This document shows, one piece after another, positions 42,334 through 59,923 of a stretch of 64,000 nt of DNA. Under the pieces are notes generated by a model, which saw nothing but the letters and a program-made list of their open reading frames with translations, did no database searches and was not told the origin of the DNA. The first letter of the stretch is position 1, and every line of letters begins with the position of its first letter. The position numbers and the translations under genes were made by a program. The stretch covers positions 1-64,000 of IMG/VR virus record IMGVR_UViG_3300035211_000053; one strand, given 5' to 3'. This stretch comes from a virus.

Positions 42334-43144
42334 CCACCAGCTCCTTGTGCATTCGTGTCGCCTCGGCCAGTGCCTGGGCCATCAGGGCCATGATCCCTGG
42401 CACAGTGGACGTTAGGCTGGCCTCAAGGGCAACACGTGGCTGACGCCCGCGGCAGAGTTTCCGCCCAGCCTCCGTCAATGGGTAGAGCGCCATGATTGCC
42501 CTGCCCTGCGCTGCCCAACGTAATCCCTCGTCACAGTGCATGGCCTGGATAATCACTGACCCACCCGGCAAGCGCTCTTCGAGCCTGGCGATCCGCCGGC
42601 TGATGCGGGCAGCACGCTGCATGGTCGAGTCGTCGACGACGGCGCCGACGCTGTGGGCCTCGGCCCCCGACTCGAAAGCAGGCGTCGACGTCACGTAACC
42701 GGCGCCCCCGCAGCGGTAGCAGGTCTCGCCATATTCGTCTTCTCCAAAGCCTTTGCACTTGTAGCAGACCTTGTAGCCGCTGCGGGTCGGGGTTCTGCGC
42801 GCTGGCCTGATCTCGAGGTGACCAGTTCCTTTGCAGGTCCGGCATTCATTCGTCAGATAGTGCTTGCCTGACTTGTCCTTCGGATCCGTCCAGTAGACCG
42901 ATCGATGGCGTTCCCCTGTCTTGTCTTCCCAGGTTTCCACGTGGCAATTCATGCCCCACAGTATTCCGTCGGTGCAATCCTCATTCGGACACGGTTTGGC
43001 CTTCAGCGAGAACATGCGCAGATGATCCAGCATTGGGCCACAGGTCGACCGCGCAAATCTGCAGGCGCCTGGACCGAAGTACCAGTTCAGTTCTATCTGG
43101 TCACTCAGCGGTAACACCAATGACGCCAGCACGAGCGCGTTCAT
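42311..43144 (-). CDS. DnaJ-type zinc-finger protein
   Basis: 277 aa. Three zinc modules: CPNEDCTDGILWGMNC (about 52-67), CRTCKGTGHLE (about 101-111), and the pair CYKCKGFGEDEYGETCYRC (126-144) with GGAGYV. The C-x2-C-x-G-x-G knuckles are as in DnaJ. The C-terminal half is helical and contains MHCDEGLRWAAQGRA. No J domain. Such phage proteins may bind nucleic acid or serve in late-gene control; that is inference. Confidence 0.6.
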   Translation of the reverse strand: MNALVLASLVLPLSDQIELNWYFGPGACRFARSTCGPMLDHLRMFSLKAKPCPNEDCTDGILWGMNCHVETWEDKTGERHRSVYWTDPKDKSGKHYLTNECRTCKGTGHLEIRPARRTPTRSGYKVCYKCKGFGEDEYGETCYRCGGAGYVTSTPAFESGAEAHSVGAVVDDSTMQRAARISRRIARLEERLPGGSVIIQAMHCDEGLRWAAQGRAIMALYPLTEAGRKLCRGRQPRVALEASLTSTVPGIMALMAQALAEATRMHKELVDAWNATK

Positions 43145-43332
43145 CCGAATAGCCTTTCGTCTGGCAACTCAGGACGTGGCATCCAGCGCGTCACCCGTTC
43201 CGGGTACCGTGGGATCCACCTCACGCCGTTCCATGAGCGCACTTCGATCCAGCGATGGCCGAAGTTTTCGACAACCACCAGGTAGTAGTCCTCGGCCATG
43301 GGCGACGTGGTGATAGCGGTCCAGTTGCTCAT
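43141..43332 (-). CDS. DUF551-like small protein
   Basis: 63 aa with W-T-A-I-T...P...D.YYLVVVENF, then EVRSWNGVRWIPRYPERVTR and WMPRPELPDE. The final V-T-x-W-M-P-x-P-E-x-P motif is the signature of DUF551 phage proteins. Coupled by ATGA. Function unknown. Confidence 0.7.
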   Translation of the reverse strand: MSNWTAITTSPMAEDYYLVVVENFGHRWIEVRSWNGVRWIPRYPERVTRWMPRPELPDERLFG

Positions 43333-43578: not shown

Positions 43579-44142
43579 TCATGGTATCATCACTACAATT
43601 CCTTGCTCCAGCTCCTCAGGCTCAGCTGGGGCGACGTCTGTGTTCTCTGGCTTAGCCTTGGGCTCAGGCTCGGCAGCAACCGGAGTCTCCTCGACGAAGT
43701 ACACCTTCCCACGCTTTTGCCCGCGGCTCTTCACGTGGCCCTGCTTCTCCAGGTAGGCCAGCGCCTTGCTCACGTCTGCGGTGGAGCGCGCAGTGGCCTC
43801 GGCGAGTGCCCGGCAGCTCATCACATCACCGGGTTGTTTGCGGAGCTCGGCCCACACGTCAGCTGCCAACTCTCGGGCCTCGGCGGCGCTGATGGCGGCC
43901 GGCTTCCCGGCTGCTACGCCCCTTGGCTTCGCCTTCTGTAGTCCGGCCCCCCGCCCTTTCTTCGGCGCCGGTGCCCCACCAGCGGGAGGATGCTGGTCCG
44001 TGAACAGTGGGTCCAGCTCCTCGGCCTGCGCTCGCAGCTCAGTGGCCATCCGCTCGTAGTCGGCGGCCTGGTCACGGGCGGCGGCCGCCATGGCTTTGCG
44101 CATTGTTTCGGACCAAATTGTTGTGTCGATCTTCGTTGTCAT
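43579..44142 (-). CDS. winged-helix regulator-like protein
   Basis: 187 aa. N-terminal helix (RDQAADYERMATELRAQAEE), a basic Pro/Ala linker, and a winged-helix domain about residues 85-150: RELAADVWAELRKQPGDVMS, CRALAEATARSTADVSKALA, YLEKQGHVKSRGQKRGKVYF. The C-terminus is acidic. Probably a DNA-binding regulator. Coupled by ATGA to the coiled-coil gene upstream. Confidence 0.6.
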   Translation of the reverse strand: MTTKIDTTIWSETMRKAMAAAARDQAADYERMATELRAQAEELDPLFTDQHPPAGGAPAPKKGRGAGLQKAKPRGVAAGKPAAISAAEARELAADVWAELRKQPGDVMSCRALAEATARSTADVSKALAYLEKQGHVKSRGQKRGKVYFVEETPVAAEPEPKAKPENTDVAPAEPEELEQGIVVMIP

Positions 44143-44498
44143 GTCTTCCTCACAATCTCCCAGTCGGTGGCATTAACCATGTCGGCCAGATTTCGGATCA
44201 CTTCGCGGAGGGCGTCGCGCTCGGCGCGCAGCTCGTCACGTTCAGCACACAGGTGTGTGATCTCAGGACCGCGCCAAGCTAATACCGTCCGTTCCAATTC
44301 CTTGACGCGCTCGCGCAGCACGTCGCGCTCTTTCCTTACCTCCACACCTCGCTCCTGTTCCTTCCCGAGTACTCTCGTCAGCTCCTCCAACCCCTGTTTC
44401 AGCTGCTGGTGTTCTGTGTTCATGTCCTCCCACTGCACGAGGACTCCGGTCTCGGACTCGCGAAGCTTCAGCTCGGGCTCATATCGCTTGATCGTCAT
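44139..44498 (-). CDS. coiled-coil protein
   Basis: 119 aa, nearly all charged helix with heptads (LKQGLEELTRVLGKEQERGV, ERVKELERTVLAWRGPEITH, AERDELRAERDALREVIRNL). No catalytic motif. It resembles the many coiled-coil accessory proteins of this region (44.5-47.2 and 58.8-59.7 kb). Role unknown. Confidence 0.55.
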   Translation of the reverse strand: MTIKRYEPELKLRESETGVLVQWEDMNTEHQQLKQGLEELTRVLGKEQERGVEVRKERDVLRERVKELERTVLAWRGPEITHLCAERDELRAERDALREVIRNLADMVNATDWEIVRKT

Positions 44499-44516: not shown

Positions 44517-45197
44517 TCACACCCTGAATTCCCGCTCCAGCACGTGGAGCATTGCCTGTAGCGATTCAATTCGCGTCTCGAGGTACGGCTGCTCTCTCCC
44601 GACAGCGACTCGGAGTAGGTCAGTGTCCTGCGCGATGCTCTGACGCAGCTGCCTGGCAGCTCCCCGAATGATGCGCCATGCTGCCCTGCTTGACAGCTTG
44701 CTGCCCTCTCGCCGATCATCGTCGTTCCTCTTCTCTCGTCTCATCCGCTCCACAGCCTTCACACCAGCGTTCTCCGTCTCCGGGAACAGGCGCCGGCCTT
44801 CGCCTTCGCCCCATTCCTCTGCAACACGGCGGCTCATGACATCGAGCCAGCCGTCTGGGTCTGTCCAATTCTGAATGCGTTGTTTTGCAATGACTGTGCA
44901 ATAGGCCCGCATCGCCTTGTCCCGCTCCTCCATCAGCTGAGCATTCGTGGCCACCGCCCATTGCTCGGCGTGTTTCTGTGCTTGGATGGCCTCGTCCCGC
45001 TGCGTGAGGGCCTGGTCACGCTCAGCCTCCATCCTGCTCACCTCGTCCCGTGTCAGCCTGGCGTTGTCGGCGGCGAGTTCGCGAATTCGGCCAGCCACAG
45101 CGCAGTAGCTGACCATCGGGGTATGGACTGGTCCAGCTGCACGGTCTATTCCGGCAGCTAGGATTTCGAAAGCTTTCATCAGTGTCGCGTCATCCAC
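44517..45197 (-). CDS. coiled-coil accessory protein with LFPE motif
   Basis: 226 aa from GTG 45197, overlapping the previous stop by 8 nt. Starts VDDATLMKAFEIL, similar to the MDDATL start of the 47156 gene. A central coiled coil (SRMEAERDQALTQRDEAIQA) is followed by VAEEWGEGEGRRLFPETENA, a motif also at the end of the 59670 gene. The C-terminus is helical. Function unknown; part of a duplicated family in this phage. Confidence 0.55.
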   Translation of the reverse strand: MDDATLMKAFEILAAGIDRAAGPVHTPMVSYCAVAGRIRELAADNARLTRDEVSRMEAERDQALTQRDEAIQAQKHAEQWAVATNAQLMEERDKAMRAYCTVIAKQRIQNWTDPDGWLDVMSRRVAEEWGEGEGRRLFPETENAGVKAVERMRREKRNDDDRREGSKLSSRAAWRIIRGAARQLRQSIAQDTDLLRVAVGREQPYLETRIESLQAMLHVLEREFRV

Positions 45198-46320
45198 TGT
45201 CCACCTCGATTCCGAGCGCGGCGAGGTCGTCCTCGTTGAACACCGGGCACTCAAAGTCTGTCAGCACTTCCTTGACAGCTACCCGCACCTTCTCTGCCAA
45301 TTCGGCGCTGAGCACGACCTCGCCTTTAAGGGCAATCTGCTCGCCCTCGCGGAGCTCGACCATGTGCACGATGCCGTCGTGATCTCCGGTCTCAGCAAAC
45401 GGGAACTTGAGAGACACATGCGGGTGACTGGGGCCCGCCATGAACGGGGTCCCGGTGCCGTTGAAGCCCACCCACGCCTCCCGCCGCTTAGGCTTCGGCG
45501 CCGCGGGCGGGCAGCCAACACCGTGTGCTCGGTCCCAATTCTCGGCGTCTTTCGCGTCGGCCGCGACCTCAGCGTCGATCTCTGGATCCGGATGGTACCC
45601 GTGGACAACAATGTGCCAGTCGGTGGCTTTGAACTCTTCTGGACTCGGGTTCCACTCGCTCGCTGAGCACCCAATCCCTGCCACGCGGATCCCTACCCCG
45701 GTCAATGTCAACATCGGGCTGCCCCTCCTGGACACCTCTCTACCATGCTCCAGTGCCCCCAGGGCCTCCATCCACGTCAGATTAGTGGTCTTGGGTTTCA
45801 TGTCTGGCCCCGCACACCCCGCCTGGCTCAGCGGATGTCCCGGGGGCCGCACAAGGTCGGCTGCGTCGCGGGCGCATACGCTATCTGAGCAGTCGCGGTG
45901 TTCGCCCCACCCACAAGCCTGTCGCTCTTGCGAGACCTGCGACCTCATCAGCTCATCAGCCAGGTCACGCAAGCCGTTACTGTCCAAGAGACCCGCATGC
46001 CAACCATGCACAGCCCTTGCCAGCAGTCTGTAGATGTCGCGGGCTCTGGTCGCGTTGTCCAGTTCTAGGCGTAGCCGGTCGTGCTCCTCGGTGTGCTGCT
46101 GGTCCGGCTTCAGTATGCTGTCAGCGGATGAAACTGTCGTGCCGTACTCCTCAAGCCCATGGACCTGGCTGGCCCGCTTCAGCTCCTCGACGTCAGCCGT
46201 GAGCTCCTGGAACAGCGTGACGCAATGCTCCAGGGCAGCAGTGACATGAGGGCTCACTGAAACGTTATTGGCCAGCTGCACTAGACGCATGATGCGCTCG
46301 ATTCGTTCGCTCGGTTTCAC
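45190..46320 (-). CDS. multidomain protein with Tad2 (DUF2829)-like anti-defence domain
   Basis: 376 aa from GTG 46320 (GTGA overlap). Residues 1-130 are helical/coiled coil, 137-170 Cys-rich. Residues about 174-240 (LTWMEALGALEHGREVSRRG, SPMLTLTGVG, then SPEEFKATDWHIVV) follow the DUF2829/Tad2 pattern: an N-terminal helix ending in a G-x-x-V-x-R turn and a C-terminal D-W-x-x-V strand. Tad2 proteins sequester cyclic ADPR signals of Thoeris defence. The C-terminal 130 residues are extra. An ATG at residue 174 could yield the domain alone. Confidence 0.55.
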   Translation of the reverse strand: MKPSERIERIMRLVQLANNVSVSPHVTAALEHCVTLFQELTADVEELKRASQVHGLEEYGTTVSSADSILKPDQQHTEEHDRLRLELDNATRARDIYRLLARAVHGWHAGLLDSNGLRDLADELMRSQVSQERQACGWGEHRDCSDSVCARDAADLVRPPGHPLSQAGCAGPDMKPKTTNLTWMEALGALEHGREVSRRGSPMLTLTGVGIRVAGIGCSASEWNPSPEEFKATDWHIVVHGYHPDPEIDAEVAADAKDAENWDRAHGVGCPPAAPKPKRREAWVGFNGTGTPFMAGPSHPHVSLKFPFAETGDHDGIVHMVELREGEQIALKGEVVLSAELAEKVRVAVKEVLTDFECPVFNEDDLAALGIEVDSG

Positions 46321-47156
46321 TTCGTCACCTGTCCTGTGCTAGACTCACACTTCACGTGGCCCGGCACACTCCGGGACGTCACCTCCGGGTATGCATCAGC
46401 CAGTTCCTTCGCTGCGGAGTCCAGTTGGCTTGTGTTGCTACATTGCTGCATGGCCCAGTAGCACCGCCGGAGTAGCTCGACGTTTACCGCTGGCGTCGCT
46501 GGGCCGTCAAGATCCGAAAGGCGAACCCACGAGCATCCCGGGAGCGGTGGCATACTGAGTTCATTGCTACGCCACAGGGAAAACCTGCCGTCACGCTCTC
46601 GAATCAGGTAGTCGCCACTGGCAGGCACAGGGCCGGTTTTCCAGATGGCCTTCGGCTGCTGCGCGCCGAGGCCCGTCTCATTCCGGTCGCGCCGCATCTC
46701 CTCAATCGTGGTCTTCAGCCGGAAGATTGTGCTCTGAGCCTCCGCCGGCGTAGCGCAGTCAGTCGCTTCCTTCCAAAACGCGTGCGCAGTTTTCAGCCGA
46801 AGGCGTTGCCTCCGCTCCTCGGCGACCCGTGCCTCCAGCCGTCCGATCTTCTCGGCGGCCTCCGCGGGGACGTCGCAGCCGGTGGCGTGTTGCCAGAGTT
46901 TGTCCCGTCTTGCCTCCGCTGAACGCGCGCGTCGGTCCAGGCACTCACGTTCAAGGGCAACCCAGGATGGGAGCGAGACCTCTGCCCCTGGACGCGCTGC
47001 ACCCGGCTTCTCGACGGCCAGCGCGCGGATGCGGGTGGCGATGCGCCTGATTTCTTCCGCCTTCGGTTCCGGGTTGTCGTCGAACATCATCAGTTCGGCG
47101 AATGCCATTGCCTCAATTTTCATCGCCTCAAGTTCGATCAGCGTTGCGTCATCCAT
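46317..47156 (-). CDS. coiled-coil accessory protein
   Basis: 279 aa from ATG 47156. Starts MDDATLIELEAMKIEAMAFA. A central charged helical region (KIGRLEARVAEERRQRLRLK, FRLKTTIEEMRRDRNE), then a WKTGPVPASGDYLIRERDGR beta part with SLWRSNELSMPPLPGCSWV resembling a DUF551-like fold. Probably a multi-domain accessory protein. GTGA coupling to the Tad2-like gene. Confidence 0.55.
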   Translation of the reverse strand: MDDATLIELEAMKIEAMAFAELMMFDDNPEPKAEEIRRIATRIRALAVEKPGAARPGAEVSLPSWVALERECLDRRARSAEARRDKLWQHATGCDVPAEAAEKIGRLEARVAEERRQRLRLKTAHAFWKEATDCATPAEAQSTIFRLKTTIEEMRRDRNETGLGAQQPKAIWKTGPVPASGDYLIRERDGRFSLWRSNELSMPPLPGCSWVRLSDLDGPATPAVNVELLRRCYWAMQQCSNTSQLDSAAKELADAYPEVTSRSVPGHVKCESSTGQVTK

Positions 47157-47157
47157 C

Positions 47158-47487
47158 TCAGTACTCCGATGAGCAGAGGAAGCGCCTACCGTGGTTTGCG
47201 GCCCACTCCTGGCACGTTCTCGTGTGTCGGAGCCCAACCTCGCCCCATTCCCCATCTGTGTCGATTATCGACAGCTCGTCCGTGTCAGGACGCTGGCGCC
47301 ATTCCTTGTCCTGGTGGTCCGACAACGGCTCTCCCGTCTGCTCGAGCCAGACCAGCATCGCGTCCTCGGCAGACCTGGCGACCACCATGTCGATTCCGTC
47401 GTCGTCTGTGAATACATGCAGTTCGTCCATCACTGGTCTCCTCCACGGGCTCGCCGGCACGACGCGCAGGCGGTACGGGCGGGTCAT
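47158..47487 (-). CDS. small acidic hypothetical protein
   Basis: 109 aa if started at ATG 47487 (ATGA overlap with the RNA ligase stop). ATG 47430, after GTGGAGGAGACCAGTG, has a stronger ribosome-binding site and gives 90 aa. The core is DELHVFTDDDGIDMVVARSA, EDAMLVWLEQTGEPLSDHQD and a Cys near the end. It resembles small phage proteins of unknown role. Confidence 0.55.
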   Translation of the reverse strand: MTRPYRLRVVPASPWRRPVMDELHVFTDDDGIDMVVARSAEDAMLVWLEQTGEPLSDHQDKEWRQRPDTDELSIIDTDGEWGEVGLRHTRTCQEWAANHGRRFLCSSEY

Positions 47488-48386
47488 TTCGACTCGTCTC
47501 CAAACTGCCCAACCGCCAACCGTTGCTTGTACCACTCTGGCAGCCCGAATCCGGAAGACCGCAACACGTCTTTGCGGATCCATTTCCAGAGCCGATCCTT
47601 GATTTCGTCAGCGCACTCTGCCTCGATGTCTAGCTGGACTTCTTTCAGTAGCGCGCCAATGTCCTTGGGGGTACCGGTCAACTCACCACGATCACGAAGA
47701 TGCTGCACCGCCTTGTCCCACCGCGCCTCTGTTCGGTACATGTGGCACAGCTCCTGCTTGATGTCTCCACCAGCCAGTTGCCGTTGACGCCAATCATCCC
47801 GGTGCACTTCCTTGAAACGCTCCGAGACGTGCTTTCCCATGAGCACGCGGCCGTCGATCCCGAATCGGTGGTAATTCTTGAAAACCAGACCCTCGACCTT
47901 CTGGCCCCCGAGCATCGAAACGTTCTCCATCAGGTGCTCGACGTCCGTAAACGACGAGAGCTTTGCAACTCGAAACGTCGGGACAGCCTCGAGACCTAGG
48001 CGCTCTCCCCATTCTCGGACACCATCCGGCTGCGTGTAGTGCTCCCCGGCCCGACTCACATCAAACAACACGATGTGTCCCCTTGGTACGCGGTCATAGG
48101 CTAGCGTGTTGTGCTTCGGTCTCTGCAGGTACTCTCCGCGAAACACGACACCCTCAGGCAACCCTGACAGCTTCGTGATGGTCTCAACTGCCTTGGCAAA
48201 CATTCCGTCCGGAGCATCCACGTTGACCACAGCCCCCTTAGACCGCGCATGAAGCTCTCCGTCAACGACGCCAAAGCTAAACTGGCTGCCATCCACTTTT
48301 TCCTGGACGACAACCTCGTCGAAAAACAGCTCCGCGATCGCGGAGTGGCCCAGCGCGTAGATCTTGGCGTAGCTTGGTAGTTTCAC
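47484..48386 (-). CDS. RNA ligase (Rnl2-like nucleotidyltransferase)
   Basis: 300 aa from GTG 48386. Nucleotidyltransferase motifs in order: I EKVDGSQ (Lys30), III VFRGEYL (Glu about 85), IV KVEGLVFK (165-170), V VLMGKHV (Lys about 185). The C-terminal 110 residues are a helical domain (RWDKAVQHLRDRGELTGTPK). It would seal RNA nicks, for example tRNAs cut by host defence nucleases. It follows the helicase gene. Polynucleotide kinase partner not found in the window. Confidence 0.8.
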   Translation of the reverse strand: MKLPSYAKIYALGHSAIAELFFDEVVVQEKVDGSQFSFGVVDGELHARSKGAVVNVDAPDGMFAKAVETITKLSGLPEGVVFRGEYLQRPKHNTLAYDRVPRGHIVLFDVSRAGEHYTQPDGVREWGERLGLEAVPTFRVAKLSSFTDVEHLMENVSMLGGQKVEGLVFKNYHRFGIDGRVLMGKHVSERFKEVHRDDWRQRQLAGGDIKQELCHMYRTEARWDKAVQHLRDRGELTGTPKDIGALLKEVQLDIEAECADEIKDRLWKWIRKDVLRSSGFGLPEWYKQRLAVGQFGDESK

Positions 48387-51328: not shown

Positions 51329-51843
51329 CAGACGCAAATCCTTCGCAGAGATCCGAATGGGAACAGCACCATCGGAGGACTTACGCGATCGCCGGTTTTC
51401 GCGTTCAGCCCGTCCCAGATCCGTTCCGATGATCTGATCCTAGACAACTCTCCCCAAAAAACTCCAGTTGGCTCTTCGCGTTCGTGCATGAAGAACAAAT
51501 ACACGGGGCGAGACGTCAAGATCGACACACGCGCATACTGATCCAGCAGCCTGCGTTCGCAACCCGTCTCAAGAGTCTCGCTCACCCCGTCAGTGCGAAC
51601 CCATCTCGTCTTCCGTTTCACCTCTGCGAAGAACTGCTCGTCTTTCCAACAAAGCAGGTCAGGAAGCGTTAGCCCCTCCAGTGACCCATTTACCGAAGCC
51701 CACGCCGAAGGCGCAGATTGCCGGATAAACTGGTACATTGGCAGGACAACATTGCCGCGCCGGATAAGCATGGCTCCAATCTTGTGCTCACCCTCCTCCC
51801 CGAAGCGCAAAGCGTCCTCGAAGTTCACGCTTCGAGCCCCCAT
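51328..51843 (-). CDS. PD-(D/E)XK nuclease-like protein
   Basis: 171 aa from ATG 51843; GTG 51828 (GTGA overlap) and ATG 51852 are alternatives. GLTLPDLLCWKDEQFFAEVK (about 55-75) gives the PD-x(n)-ExK motif of the restriction-nuclease fold. RRLLDQYARVSILTSRPVYL is the following helix and strand. Could resolve recombination intermediates or act on replicating DNA. Located between the methyltransferase and the replisome organiser. Confidence 0.6.
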   Translation of the reverse strand: MGARSVNFEDALRFGEEGEHKIGAMLIRRGNVVLPMYQFIRQSAPSAWASVNGSLEGLTLPDLLCWKDEQFFAEVKRKTRWVRTDGVSETLETGCERRLLDQYARVSILTSRPVYLFFMHEREEPTGVFWGELSRIRSSERIWDGLNAKTGDRVSPPMVLFPFGSLRRICV

Positions 51844-52958
51844 GTGTCCCATCCATCTGGGACATCGCGAGCAAACAGCTCTACCCTAGGAAGCCTTGGA
51901 TACATCGCCTCGATCGCAGCTCGAACCTCGGTTGGCTTGGCGCTATGCTCTGACCTAGCCGAAGCACAAGTGAAGACGCTACCAGGCCTGGCCTTGGGCG
52001 GAGGCGTTGGAATGTCGCCACGGACCCCAACGAGAATCAGCTCGTGGTTCTGACGAAAGTAGTACCCCATGCCCGTCCCTGGCTTTTGCCAGACCGCAGA
52101 CGTCTTGTAGGTGAAGCCCCATGCTTTGAGAACTTCTAGCGCACCAGGGAGCAGCGGGGATGTTGCCCACAGGAACAGAACGGCGTCATTTGCGGCCGGA
52201 GGACGCAGGGCCTTGATCTCGTCCAGGGTCATGGTCGGGTAGTTGTTCTCGACCTTGCGATTGTCGGTGGTGAAACCGCCATCATATCTCCATGGCGGGT
52301 CCGCGTAGACTACGTTGTATAGGCGATCCGGCATGGGCTTGGCCGACTCTTTGGTGGCCAAAGCCTCCACTCTTCGTTCGCGGTTCTCGTCCTGCTTCTT
52401 CTGCTTCAGTTGCTTAGCGATCTCCTTGGCTTTTATGGGGTTCTCCGCGGCCTTTCTCTGAGCTGCCTGCGAAGCGTTGGCGGCAATGACGCTAGCCGCA
52501 CTCACCGCAAGCTTCCCCTGGTCGACGGCGGCGATCAGCTCGGGCGCTCCCTTCTCCAGGACCACGCGGGCACGTTTCACGCTTGGCGTGCTGACGTTCA
52601 AAAGGCCAGATGCATCACCCTGGGAAACTGGATCAATTGATCCAGTTTTTTTTGGCCTTCCCTCACCGAGGTTCGCCACCCTAGCGGCCACCATGGCGCG
52701 CTGGCTCTCGTCAAGGTGACGACGGCGAAGGTTCAGTGAGATGACTTCTCCGAGCGGGTCCTTCCCGCGATACTCCCTGAACAGAGGCTCCACATGAGCG
52801 GATTTGCACGCGCGAAAACGGTTGCGTCCATCAAGGATCTTGCCTTCGAACGTGACAATCTTCTCGCGAAGGCCACGCTCGCCGATGTCCTTGACTAAAT
52901 CGTCGAACTCCTGCCCCTCGAGCAGAGGAAACAGACCAGCCAATCTATGAAATTGCAC
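51825..52958 (-). CDS. ParB-like/MT-A70 adenine methyltransferase fusion
   Basis: 377 aa from GTG 52958 after GAGGTGACGC. Residues 1-110 are a ParB/Srx-type domain (GKILDGRNRFRACKS, then NLRRRHLDESQRAMVAARVA), 120-200 a helical linker. Residues 212-377 are MT-A70: VVYADPPW (218-223, catalytic DPPW), FLWATSPLLPGALEVLKAWG and NHELILVGVRG. It methylates adenine in DNA and may protect phage DNA. The ParB part probably guides DNA binding. Confidence 0.85.
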   Translation of the reverse strand: MQFHRLAGLFPLLEGQEFDDLVKDIGERGLREKIVTFEGKILDGRNRFRACKSAHVEPLFREYRGKDPLGEVISLNLRRRHLDESQRAMVAARVANLGEGRPKKTGSIDPVSQGDASGLLNVSTPSVKRARVVLEKGAPELIAAVDQGKLAVSAASVIAANASQAAQRKAAENPIKAKEIAKQLKQKKQDENRERRVEALATKESAKPMPDRLYNVVYADPPWRYDGGFTTDNRKVENNYPTMTLDEIKALRPPAANDAVLFLWATSPLLPGALEVLKAWGFTYKTSAVWQKPGTGMGYYFRQNHELILVGVRGDIPTPPPKARPGSVFTCASARSEHSAKPTEVRAAIEAMYPRLPRVELFARDVPDGWDTWGLEA

Positions 52959-54659: not shown

Positions 54660-54961
54660 CGCTCTATCCCCAGTTCTCGGATCCTGGCCGCGCTCAGGCG
54701 CCAAAGCAGGTACGCACCAAACTTCGCTGTCTCGCTCTCGAGGATCCCCTCTTGCTCGAGCAGTTCCAGGTTGGATCGCACGTAGCCCACGGCATACCCA
54801 ACCGACCTGGCAACGTCCTCAGTTGCAAACGCCTCCCCCTCCAGCCAGGGCTCAGTCTGGATCAGGGTCAGCACAGCGCGCCGCACATTGCTATCATTAG
54901 GGCAGTACGGCGGCGGGTACATGATGCCGCGCAACTCCAGCTGAGCCGGCCCGTCAGTCAT
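54656..54961 (-). CDS. winged-helix-like small protein
   Basis: 101 aa. VRRAVLTLIQTEPWLEGEAF, ATEDVARSVGYAVGYVRSNL, ELLEQEGILESETAKFGAYL form a plausible winged helix. The start overlaps the methyltransferase stop by 8 nt (ATGACTGA). Probably DNA-binding. Confidence 0.55.
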   Translation of the reverse strand: MTDGPAQLELRGIMYPPPYCPNDSNVRRAVLTLIQTEPWLEGEAFATEDVARSVGYAVGYVRSNLELLEQEGILESETAKFGAYLLWRLSAARIRELGIER

Positions 54962-56525
54962 CGAACAGGCTCCTTTGCTTCATCTCCGCTGGCGTCTCGG
55001 TCTTGGGTGGTTTCCACGATGATGCGTGATGCAGCCTAGCGCGCGCGATCGTGCAGTAGGGGAATTCATCGGTGTCGTACATCTCGATTCCAATGAAGCG
55101 GATACGCTCGAGCATGCAGGCGACGCCGGTTGTACCGCTCCCAGCGAAGGGGTCGAGGCAGATGCCACCAGGGCGGGTCACGAGGCGGACTAGCCAGCGC
55201 ATGAGCTCAACGCCCTTCACGGTCGCGTGGCTGTTGCGTGCGCCGCCGCTCCGCCCAGCTCCGGTCCTCGGGAAATCGAGTGCCGCCGTTCCATCCTTGC
55301 GCCGCGTTGCCTGTCCGCGTGTCTTCTTGGGCAGATGCTCGCAACCCGTGTCCCGCTCACGTCTAGACGGTTTGGCCTGATAGAGGAATGGGGCGATGTC
55401 GTCGAGCGGACTGGCGCGGAATTGAGGGAAGAAGCGGGAGGCGAAACCAACATCTCCCGCGACAGCTGCATTGTTTCCATGCTTCCTTCCCCTACCATAG
55501 CAGACCAAATGGGCCTCAGTATCGGGACATGCTGCATTAGATCCACCATTTCTTAAAAAGCCGCTTTGCCCATCCAATTCCCGAATGGGACACCCCTCCG
55601 CGCATCGCTCTCCGCACCCATCGGAATGGCTCAGCACCACGTTGGTCGGCCAGCGCCCGGCGGGGTGACATTGGATCCCGGCACCCGGAGGCGCAGCTAT
55701 CTTCTCCTCGGTAGGCTTCGCGCTGTGCCCGCTTGCGTGCCACGATGGCGGGCGCTCCGTCCAGTCCGTTGACACGCGGCAGGCGTCGATGTGTAGGCAC
55801 CCGCAGCCATGGGTCAGCACGTTGTCGACCAGCGTGCCCTTGAACGGCTTGCGAGCAAGAAACCAAAACTCAGCGCTTGGCTTCAGTCCCGTCCCATACC
55901 CGTCCCATGCTCGCGACTCGTCACAGCCACCAGCCGTCACCGCTAGCTCGATCGGCTCGGAGTTCTCGGCACCGACCGAGTAGGTACCGCCCTTGTCCTT
56001 AGTAGACGTCCCTGCGTTGCCGCCTGCCTGGTAGGTGTGCAGGACGCGGCGTTGAGACGTGGTGCCCATCTTGCGGTCGATACCCTTGGAAACATTCAGA
56101 CTTTTCGGCATACCCGTCCCGAACAGGTGTGACACGACGTCGCGTACCTCAAACCCGGCCTGCTCAATGGCGAGGCCTGTCCAGTGCGATTTGCGGGGCA
56201 GCGCCCAGACGAAAGCGTGCCCTCCGGGCTTCAGGGCGCGGAGGCATTCGGCCATGACCAGCGTGAGCCACTGCACCCACATCGCACGCCCGCCCCTGTC
56301 GGAATCCCAATCATTCCCCATAAATCGGATCGCAGACGGTGGGTCCGTCACAATCGAGTCAACCGAGCAGTCCGGTATCAAACGCAACGCTTGCAGGCAA
56401 TCGTCGTGCAGCAAAGCCCATCTCTGCTCACCACGCAGCACGCGGGCCAAGTCAGCTTCCTGGCAGGCCCGCTCGAACCGCCAGAGATCGCGGTCGACGA
56501 GACTCAACTCTATGGAAGCTGGCAT
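54954..56525 (-). CDS. DNA methyltransferase (N4-cytosine/N6-adenine type)
   Basis: 523 aa from ATG 56525. Motif IV is DPPS (61-64; usually DPPY or DPPW), in SIVTDPPSAIRFMGNDWDSD. Motif I DPFAGSGTTG (458-467) is near the C-terminus, giving the beta-class order. A long middle insertion (about 180-420) carries many Cys/His, probably the target-recognition domain. It likely protects phage DNA from restriction. Coupled to the SLOG gene by ATGA. Confidence 0.85.
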   Translation of the reverse strand: MPASIELSLVDRDLWRFERACQEADLARVLRGEQRWALLHDDCLQALRLIPDCSVDSIVTDPPSAIRFMGNDWDSDRGGRAMWVQWLTLVMAECLRALKPGGHAFVWALPRKSHWTGLAIEQAGFEVRDVVSHLFGTGMPKSLNVSKGIDRKMGTTSQRRVLHTYQAGGNAGTSTKDKGGTYSVGAENSEPIELAVTAGGCDESRAWDGYGTGLKPSAEFWFLARKPFKGTLVDNVLTHGCGCLHIDACRVSTDWTERPPSWHASGHSAKPTEEKIAAPPGAGIQCHPAGRWPTNVVLSHSDGCGERCAEGCPIRELDGQSGFLRNGGSNAACPDTEAHLVCYGRGRKHGNNAAVAGDVGFASRFFPQFRASPLDDIAPFLYQAKPSRRERDTGCEHLPKKTRGQATRRKDGTAALDFPRTGAGRSGGARNSHATVKGVELMRWLVRLVTRPGGICLDPFAGSGTTGVACMLERIRFIGIEMYDTDEFPYCTIARARLHHASSWKPPKTETPAEMKQRSLFDD

Positions 56526-56929
56526 CACCTGACCCTCACCTCTTCCACCTCGAGCCCAACAGCCCGGAGTTTTCTGGCGCAATCGTGGGTGCCGCGGCTC
56601 TGTGAATCCGGGAAGGCAAAGCCCTTGCCATTCAGGCCTTCCTGAAGCAGCGCCTTTGCAGAGCCTGCCATGCTGGAGTTGCGGACCGGGCCCGCGCGCT
56701 TGCCTAACAGATCCCAAATAGCGTGGTGGACGTCGATGCAGACCCCTTCCTCATCGGCCAACTCTCTCGCGGCCCTATCGACTCCGGTGCGACAATCGCC
56801 CACGATGAGCAGCCCACCAGCCTTCACCTGTTGTAGAGCAGGACGGATGAGATCACGAAGCTCTGGTTGCCAACCCAGCGACGACCCTCGCCGCGTCCCC
56901 GTGATGACGATGAAGTCGAGATCATGCAT
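56525..56929 (-). CDS. SLOG (YpsA/DprA-related, DUF2493-like) nucleotide-binding protein
   Basis: 134 aa. VITGTRRGSSLGWQPELRDL, LLIVGDCRTGVDRAARELAD, IWDLLGKRAGPVRNSSMAGS form a Rossmann-like fold with a G-T-R-x-G loop, a G-x-x-x-G-V-D motif and A-G-x-x-R-N. These are typical of SLOG proteins, thought to bind NAD- or ADP-ribose-type ligands. Its role in phages is unclear. Confidence 0.7.
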   Translation of the reverse strand: MHDLDFIVITGTRRGSSLGWQPELRDLIRPALQQVKAGGLLIVGDCRTGVDRAARELADEEGVCIDVHHAIWDLLGKRAGPVRNSSMAGSAKALLQEGLNGKGFAFPDSQSRGTHDCARKLRAVGLEVEEVRVR

Positions 56930-57801: not shown

Positions 57802-58787
57802 CGTCCCACCTGTACATCAGGATATTCCCTCGTCCTGAGGTCCTCAGGCCACTCGGACATGACGGCACCCTTCGAGTCGGAGATCGGATAACGTTCTGCG
57901 GCCACCGTCATTTGACGTTGTCCGTGATGTGTACGAAAACGCGCCATCAACACACCTGGGATCACCGGACAAGCTCCAAGTTGTTTAACGTGTACCGGTG
58001 TCCCCGCCGCTTGACATTGCTTGACCACCGACTGGATCCAGCCAATGCTACAGTGGCGCGCGCCGGGACCCGACTCGCCGCCCACCACCACCCAGTCCAC
58101 CCCCCTTACGTGCAGGTGGTGGTCATTGTACTCCGGGAGGCAGCACGACAGATCGACTGGCCCCAACAACGGCTCCAGTGACACCCACCGCACCGCAGCC
58201 GGGACTTGTGCGAGGTACGCCCACCGCTTCTCCAGCGCATCCTGGTTCTCGGCGCTGACCCCGACCATCACGTTGGGGAGGGGCCAGGAGATCTTCTGCG
58301 CATCGAGCACACCTTTGACCCCTATCCGGAAGGCGGACCCTAGGACTCTTTCAGAGATACTGCATGCCGGTTCTGTTTCAGCCCGTATCCACCGGTAGAA
58401 CTCCACCATCCGCTCCGGCCGCTTCGTCAGAATGAGGAACTGATGCTGCGGACACGCGGCAGCCACACCGTGAACAGCCGCAATGAACTCGAATGGCACC
58501 TTGGGATGGTACAAATCTGACATCGAGTTAACAAAGATCCGCCGAGGCTTGCGCCAGCGCAGCGGCTGCCCAAGACGATCCGAGCGCAGCTGCACTTGTC
58601 CTGACCAGTCCACGCGGCCATTGCGGACCGTCGTGAGGCCCTCGAATATATCTCCCGGATGGTCGAATCGGTGGGCGAACCGCGCCGCGTAGCAGTTCCA
58701 GCATCCGCTCTCTGGCCCGCCTACACGACTGCAGCCGGCGACAGGATTCCATACGGTAGAGCACCAGCTGATGGTTGTCTCAGCCAC
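57798..58787 (-). CDS. DUF5131 (phage Gp37/Gp68 family) protein
   Basis: 329 aa from GTG 58787 (8-nt overlap, GTGGCTGA). ISWCSTVWNPVAGCSRVGGP, ESGCWNCYAARFAHR (Cys triad), LGQPLRWRKPRRIFVNSMSD, LTKRPERMVEFY and SLEPLLGPVDLS with DWVVVGGESGPGARHCSIGW. These are the signature segments of PF07505. The Cys cluster resembles radical-SAM-type sites, but the chemistry is unproven. In other phages the family often sits near DNA-modification genes, as here. Confidence 0.85.
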   Translation of the reverse strand: MAETTISWCSTVWNPVAGCSRVGGPESGCWNCYAARFAHRFDHPGDIFEGLTTVRNGRVDWSGQVQLRSDRLGQPLRWRKPRRIFVNSMSDLYHPKVPFEFIAAVHGVAAACPQHQFLILTKRPERMVEFYRWIRAETEPACSISERVLGSAFRIGVKGVLDAQKISWPLPNVMVGVSAENQDALEKRWAYLAQVPAAVRWVSLEPLLGPVDLSCCLPEYNDHHLHVRGVDWVVVGGESGPGARHCSIGWIQSVVKQCQAAGTPVHVKQLGACPVIPGVLMARFRTHHGQRQMTVAAERYPISDSKGAVMSEWPEDLRTREYPDVQVGR

Positions 58788-59670
58788 CGTCAGTCTCCTT
58801 CGGCTCAGGAAACAGACGCTTGCCCTCCCCGTTACCCCATGCAGCATCGGCTTGTCTTCTCAGCGCGATGAGCTCAATTCGGCGCACGAGACCGGGATCC
58901 ACATTAGCTTTCGCGTAGCACGTTTGTCGCCGCGCCTCGTCACGCTCGTCTAGAGCAGCGCGGTGCTTGACTGCCAGTTCGCCGCGTTCTCGAATCGCAT
59001 CGTCTGAGTTCTTTCGATAGGCACCAAGTTTCACGCCAGCGTCGTACGGTGTAAGTGCCTCGGTCATGCGTTGCCAGTGTGCCACGCACTTCTCTAGTTC
59101 ATCGACGCGGGCCAGCGCGGCATCCCGCTCAGCCAACCCTCGCTCTGCCCGCTCAACGCGCGCATAAAGCTCGACGACGATTCGATAGTCCTTGGATTCA
59201 CCGTATCGTCTGTCCCGCTCGGCAATGTCGGCCAGTGCAGCATCACGCTCACGTCGGACGGCATCTGCGTCGGCACCGCCCTCCAGGCTCTTGCGCGCCG
59301 CAGCGATCAGCTGCCGTCGAATGCTCCGGCCCCCTGGTGTCAGACTGTCCTCGGGCACGTCTACCAGCTGGCTCCATTGGAATTCAACGTCATCGGCCAT
59401 CTCACGGCGCAAGCTCTCGTTCTCGGCCTCGAGCTTGCAGATGCGCTCCTCGGCTGCGATCCTTCTGTCGATTGCGTCATGCAAGTCGGAGACTATCGGG
59501 CCGGCGGCATCCTCCATTGCAGCGATGCGCTCTTCGAGTTCGCGGATGATAGCTACGGCTTGTTCGGCTTTGCAGTGATCACCGTCGGGAAAGGCCGCAA
59601 CGTTGGGGGCACCAATCCCTACGATACACAGACCGTACCGCCTCAACTCGTCCGCCCTGCTCTCAGCCAT
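58780..59670 (-). CDS. coiled-coil accessory protein with C-terminal LFPE motif
   Basis: 296 aa from ATG 59670 (8-nt overlap). Long charged heptads from about residue 40 to 250 (ISDLHDAIDRRIAAEERICK-like, AERGLAERDAALARVDELEK). It ends AAWGNGEGKRLFPEPKETDG, matching WGEGEGRRLFPETE of the 45197 gene. Function unknown. Confidence 0.6.
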   Translation of the reverse strand: MAESRADELRRYGLCIVGIGAPNVAAFPDGDHCKAEQAVAIIRELEERIAAMEDAAGPIVSDLHDAIDRRIAAEERICKLEAENESLRREMADDVEFQWSQLVDVPEDSLTPGGRSIRRQLIAAARKSLEGGADADAVRRERDAALADIAERDRRYGESKDYRIVVELYARVERAERGLAERDAALARVDELEKCVAHWQRMTEALTPYDAGVKLGAYRKNSDDAIRERGELAVKHRAALDERDEARRQTCYAKANVDPGLVRRIELIALRRQADAAWGNGEGKRLFPEPKETDGG

Positions 59671-59923
59671 CGTCAGTCTCCTCGTCGTCTCCGTAGTCGC
59701 TTTCGTGGCGCGCCCGCTCTTTGCGCTCAACCAGCCAATCCAGAAGTATAGCAATGGCTACGTAAGGCCACAGCAGCGTGCACCCTAACGCAACGGGCAC
59801 CCGTCCCTCCTTGGGCAGACCATTGTGGATCAACCGTTTCCACTTCCACGCAACCATGCAAACGCCAATTAGCCACCAGACCAAAAACGTTGCGTCAAAG
59901 GACAAATACCATTTGTTGCTCAT
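59663..59923 (-). CDS. two-span membrane protein
   Basis: 86 aa from ATG 59923 (ATGA). Spans FLVWWLIGVCMVAWKW and VALGCTLLWPYVAIAILLDW, then an acidic C-terminus (DYGDDEETDDG). No family was recognised. It may affect the host membrane early in infection. Confidence 0.6.
   Translation of the reverse strand: MSNKWYLSFDATFLVWWLIGVCMVAWKWKRLIHNGLPKEGRVPVALGCTLLWPYVAIAILLDWLVERKERARHESDYGDDEETDDG

Follow-up and report, generated by a model that had tools for sequence, protein, structure and literature searches.

A 376-aa phage protein carries a compact, distant relative of the Tad2 domain that lacks the GWNGK loop

Tad2 is a phage protein that sequesters immune signals. Tad2 proteins of solved structure are tetramers in which the pocket for gcADPR is shared between protomers: one contributes the beta1-beta2 loop, the beta3-beta4 loop and strand beta4, and the second contributes the beta1-beta2 loop, the beta4-alpha3 loop and helix alpha3, while the site for cyclic dinucleotides is an insertion between beta2 and beta5 (review PMC12043709). 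The motif R-x-G-W-N-G-K is found at the beta1-beta2 loop in all solved Tad2/AcrIIA7 members whose alignments were printed. Solved structures of this kind include Tad2 itself (SPO1 gp34.65; 8SME/8SMF/8SMG, 8WJE) and ModTad2 (8V3E, 9EIB), as well as AcrIIA7/HgmTad2 and SptTad2 (8KBI, 8WJD), whose chains of about 101-104 aa carry a long insertion and were solved with cyclic dinucleotide. The Pfam family of these proteins, PF11195 (DUF2829/Tad2), also includes compact phage proteins, which are short and stand alone; we know of no function for them and of no functional test of this subgroup. A short sequence pattern now routinely earns phage genes the label 'Thoeris anti-defence 2-like'.

The gene described here (P0001; 45190-46320, minus strand) encodes a 376-aa modular protein and lies in a window of 64.0 kb, the whole stretch of DNA that was analysed, within an IMG/VR virus record of 66.5 kb. 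Tail-sheath, portal and large-terminase genes in the window mark an uncultured, contractile-tailed phage. The 376-aa frame begins with GTG and shares 4 nt (GTGA) with the stop of the gene upstream, and because of this overlap we favour the full-length reading. The codon-usage signal is positive in the read frame along most of the gene; at residues ~121-165 all frames are close to zero, and at ~196-220 the signal is weak or near zero. Four parts can be distinguished. An N-terminal helical module (residues 1-135; 45916-46320, minus strand), without a family match in a Pfam search, has predicted helices at 3-19, 24-53, 74-108 and 114-135, all of low confidence in a single-sequence AlphaFold2 (AF2) model (block pLDDT about 30-70). 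It is followed by a Gly/Pro/Cys-rich linker (residues 136-173; 45802-45915, minus strand) with weak coding signal and a block pLDDT of 22-32, and by the compact Tad2-like domain (residues 181-240; about 45601-45780, minus strand). The C-terminal region (residues 241-376, 136 aa; 45193-45600, minus strand) falls outside known families, with no Pfam match at E <= 10 and no tblastn relatives. The regions on either side of the Tad2-like domain are real. Close relatives of the full protein were found neither in phages, plasmids, IMG/VR and GTDB contigs nor in nine viral contigs whose helicase or terminase marks them as related, the nearest contig included; the domain alone, used as a query against IMG/VR, retrieved none, and the partner regions have none in the collections searched. 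Judged by these comparisons, the locus is variable, and the domain borders are drawn from a single protein without a full-length relative.

How secure is the resemblance to Tad2? The initial annotation had seen a Tad2 pattern at about residues 174-240, and PF11195, hhalign, AF2 and Foldseek bear it out at residues 181-240. PF11195 is the best Pfam family for the whole protein (18.3 bits, E = 0.0033), and the domain alone scores 24.2 bits in two stretches (E = 4.8e-5). Both scores narrowly miss the curated cut-off of 25 bits, an operational threshold, and we consequently regard the domain as a distant homologue and not as a Pfam-grade member. In a six-frame search of the 66.5-kb record, PF11195 matched nowhere else at E <= 10. 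Other weak matches, among them Imm71 and PLU-1, fell below cut-off and were dropped. For a more sensitive comparison, about 80 Tad2-like candidates were gathered from IMG/VR by a DNA pattern for D-[LF]-[LF]-A-D-D-W-E, and a diverse set of them was aligned with Tad2-like proteins from other scans into a family profile that left out the protein under study. Against this profile the domain reached an hhalign probability of 93.5% and a score of 36.1 over 59 aligned columns, ~12 SD above 200 shuffles of its sequence (9.5 +/- 2.2, maximum 21.1). The full protein scored 35.3 against a maximum of 18.4 in 100 shuffles and ranked first among the 353 window ORFs of at least 90 aa, with the runner-up at 21.0. 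Not every profile was as discriminating: an HMM in which long Tad2 sequences predominated could scarcely tell the protein from shuffles, and a broader, locally built HMM placed it first but weakly (whole protein, E = 0.19). This last value, the unmet PF11195 cut-off and the modest E-value of the whole protein are what speaks for a chance resemblance in a region that is not Tad2-like at all. We consider such a coincidence very improbable, given the distance from the shuffles, the first rank among the ORFs, an alignment that takes in the helix, the strands and the DW end in their proper order, and a Foldseek search that ranks Tad2 first. The sequence comparisons thereby confirm residues ~181-240 as a compact domain distantly related to the Tad2-like family.

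The modelled fold agrees with this assignment. Residues 174-243, modelled by AF2 together with 24 family sequences (pLDDT 83.7, pTM 0.70), follow the order H10-18 E22-25 E30-34 E37-42 E45-49 H54-57 E62-65, that is, a helix, a beta sheet, a short helix and a final strand with DW, as in the Tad2 fold. All of the best 24 PDB matches in Foldseek are Tad2 or AcrIIA7, and the probability is 1.00 for 22 of them (E 0.004-1). The predicted fold is alike to those of Tad2 and ModTad2 (probability 1.00, TM about 0.7), with which it shares the V-x-R, W-x-PS and DW positions, and belongs to the same fold family as AcrIIA7/HgmTad2 and SptTad2. Since the family alignment guides the model, its fold is partly imposed by that alignment, and we take it as a sign of compatibility rather than as independent proof. 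The single-sequence prediction of the whole protein is poor (pLDDT 39) and useless for the fold, but its helices at 183-197 and 227-231 (the latter short) and its strand at 235-239 stand where Tad2 requires them. We regard the assignment of a Tad2-like fold to the domain as sound.

The domain departs from the solved proteins in the parts that grip the ligand. Where solved Tad2s have R-x-G-W-N-G-K, it has RRGSP, which shortens the beta1-beta2 loop by about three residues and leaves no W, N or K. The beta2-beta5 insertion of Tad2, ModTad2, AcrIIA7/HgmTad2 and SptTad2 is absent; in the AF2 model, strands 30-34 and 37-42 are joined by a turn of two residues. R198, W222 or its neighbour, and D234-W235 are retained. 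At about 60 residues inside 376 aa, the domain is also smaller than the roughly 85 residues of Tad2 and ModTad2, and its span from R198 to D234 measures 36 residues, compared with 49-74 from R to DW in members that bear WN. An independent, pattern-derived sample, picked without regard to the loop, had the WN motif in 0/14 compact domains (<= 42 residues from R to DW) and in 15/31 longer ones; the boundary of 42 was chosen by eye once the lengths were known, and the shortest WN-bearing member measures 49. Because of the lost loop and the compact length, the domain resembles the compact subgroup and not the proven sponges. Three compact PF11195 members (L115, L126, L165) have R-to-DW spans of 35-38 and lack WN, and a 60-aa protein of Klebsiella phage KpS110 (A0A2K9VAK2) is among the matches of the domain in the BFVD viral structures. 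Such proteins are stand-alone, whereas the domain described here is embedded.

Given the missing GWNGK loop and insertion, gcADPR is unlikely to be held in the manner of SPO1 Tad2, and the ligand is probably a different one or differently bound. The initial annotation had suggested an anti-Thoeris function and had named loss of the ligand-pocket residues as the observation that would count against it; this loss is largely what we see. The findings neither demonstrate nor favour an anti-Thoeris activity. One might still envision a working anti-Thoeris (or anti-CBASS) sponge that would hold gcADPR-type or related nucleotides in a rebuilt pocket, either as the 376-aa protein or as a product of an internal ATG. 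Such a sponge would accord with the predicted Tad2 fold, with the retention of the other family-conserved positions R198 and D234-W235 and with the phage origin of the gene. It would, however, have to work without the loop and without the insertion that forms the cyclic dinucleotide site, although GWNGK is kept in every solved Tad2/AcrIIA7 protein with a printed alignment, and no link to Thoeris is visible; we rate it as quite improbable.

Does a second gene lend itself to a concerted mechanism? A SLOG gene at 56525-56929 had been proposed to act together with the Tad2-like protein in a two-step counter to NAD-derived defence signals. The gene itself is real and YspA/DprA-like (phrog_289, 8.1e-14), albeit below the PF10686 cut-off (16.9 bits, E = 0.0055, against 28.2 bits). 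Its family is represented in 78 phage records, most of them from Gordonia and Mycobacterium phages, and several of these relatives are annotated as DprA-like. It lies 10 kb away and adjoins a DNA methyltransferase gene, and our search for evidence linking it to the 376-aa protein found none. The two-step anti-Thoeris mechanism is not supported.

Conceivably, the Tad2-like part could also be made on its own. An internal ATG (Met174; 45799-45801, minus strand), a possible alternative start without a clear Shine-Dalgarno sequence, lies seven residues ahead of the domain, near the point at which stand-alone Tad2 genes start. The stretch GCGGGGCCAGAC upstream of it has an anti-Shine-Dalgarno duplex energy of -6.3 kcal/mol; 13% of all ATGs on the minus strand have an energy at least as favourable, and the GTG start, at -6.2 kcal/mol, is about equal. 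A start at Met174 is possible, but as judged from these energies is no better supported than chance. The position of Met174, just ahead of the first helix, where Tad2-like genes usually begin, its parity with the GTG start and the collapse of the coding signal at residues 121-165 would all suit an origin from two genes newly joined in frame, an N-terminal coil and a Tad2-like gene from Met174, that share no function and of which the latter is perhaps still made alone. The frame is open throughout, however, no sequence with the two parts separate was found, and a disordered Gly/Pro linker could yield the same coding signal. We regard a recent fusion of this kind as unlikely.

Long proteins with a Tad2-like domain are not exceptional. 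The initial annotation had contrasted the long extra domains with the usual ~90-aa Tad2; the contrast in size holds, but rarity does not follow from it, as long Tad2-like proteins are common. The domain occurs together with Phage_gp49_66 in a protein of 314 aa (L103), with DUF7823 in one of 286 aa (L104) and fused to a helical segment in another (L105), and tandem copies are found in L011 and L177. Among the 50 best BFVD matches to the domain, 19 are at least 150 aa long, and 8 of these 19 are already named Tad2-like. L103, L104, A0A8S5M092 (270 aa, BFVD) and S5VZM3 of phage PaBG (216 aa) likewise carry the domain within a much longer protein, with partner regions that differ from those described here. 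The long architecture is therefore not unusual for Tad2-like proteins. As it lacks the signal-gripping part and fusions of this kind are frequent, the protein looks ordinary and not like a new anti-defence system. The viral contigs with tandem domains (L177, L178, L011) have a first copy without the tryptophan (REGN then LFPP) and a compact second copy.

How might the parts of the protein work together? The reading that we consider probable, with considerable reservation, is that of a modular phage accessory protein composed of an oligomerising coil, a linker, a compact Tad2-like binding module and a small C-terminal domain. The N-terminal helical segment would probably serve as the oligomerising coil, and the flexible linker would join it to the compact domain, which is most likely a binding module rather than an enzyme and would be presented as an oligomer; a small C-terminal domain would come after it. 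Oligomerisation, binding role and accessory function are predictions. Lambda Ea22, an early phage accessory protein, is likewise built of a coil and a small alpha/beta domain and is tetrameric (PMC10834534); the likeness is one of architecture only, with a different C-terminal domain and without a demonstrated sequence relation. A bolder proposal is that compact GWNGK-less Tad2-like domains, including the one presented here by a helical-module oligomer, are sponges for another signalling nucleotide or a protein partner and constitute a large class of phage counter-defence; we think this rather doubtful. Should the compact domains turn out to bind something else, they would represent a sizeable pool of phage binding proteins. 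In any case, the Tad2-like label should not be taken to indicate a function, because compact members lose the signal-gripping loop of the solved Tad2s.

Several other genes of the window, all on the minus strand, deserve mention. A 119-aa coiled-coil protein (44139-44498) closes with NLADMVNATDWEIVRKT, which is reminiscent of the final helix and strand of Tad2-like domains; the hhalign probability is only 16%. By eye, the C-terminal part of a helical protein (46317-47255; GDYLIRERDGRFSLW..WVRLSDL) and a small separate gene (43141-43332; DYYLVVVENFGHRWIEVRSW..RWMPRPELP) are DUF551-like; neither the small gene nor the last 124 residues of the helical protein had a Pfam match at E <= 10. A predicted DNA methyltransferase is encoded at 54954-56717; as listed, from a TTG, the ORF shares 193 bases with the SLOG gene, and translation probably begins further downstream. 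The product of 51825-52958 combines a ParB-like N-terminal part with a type II DNA methyltransferase C-terminal part, and a type II methyltransferase was the only match when ten window proteins were submitted to PADLOC. An RNA ligase gene (47484-48386; PF09414, phrog_548) lies a short way upstream of the Tad2-like gene, adjoining a DnaB-like helicase; phage enzymes of this kind can mend tRNAs that a host defence has cleaved. Finally, the gene downstream of the Tad2-like gene (44517-45254) and a gene at 58780-59754 have a short stretch in common (EWGEGEGRRLFPE and AWGNGEGKRLFPE, E = 9e-4).
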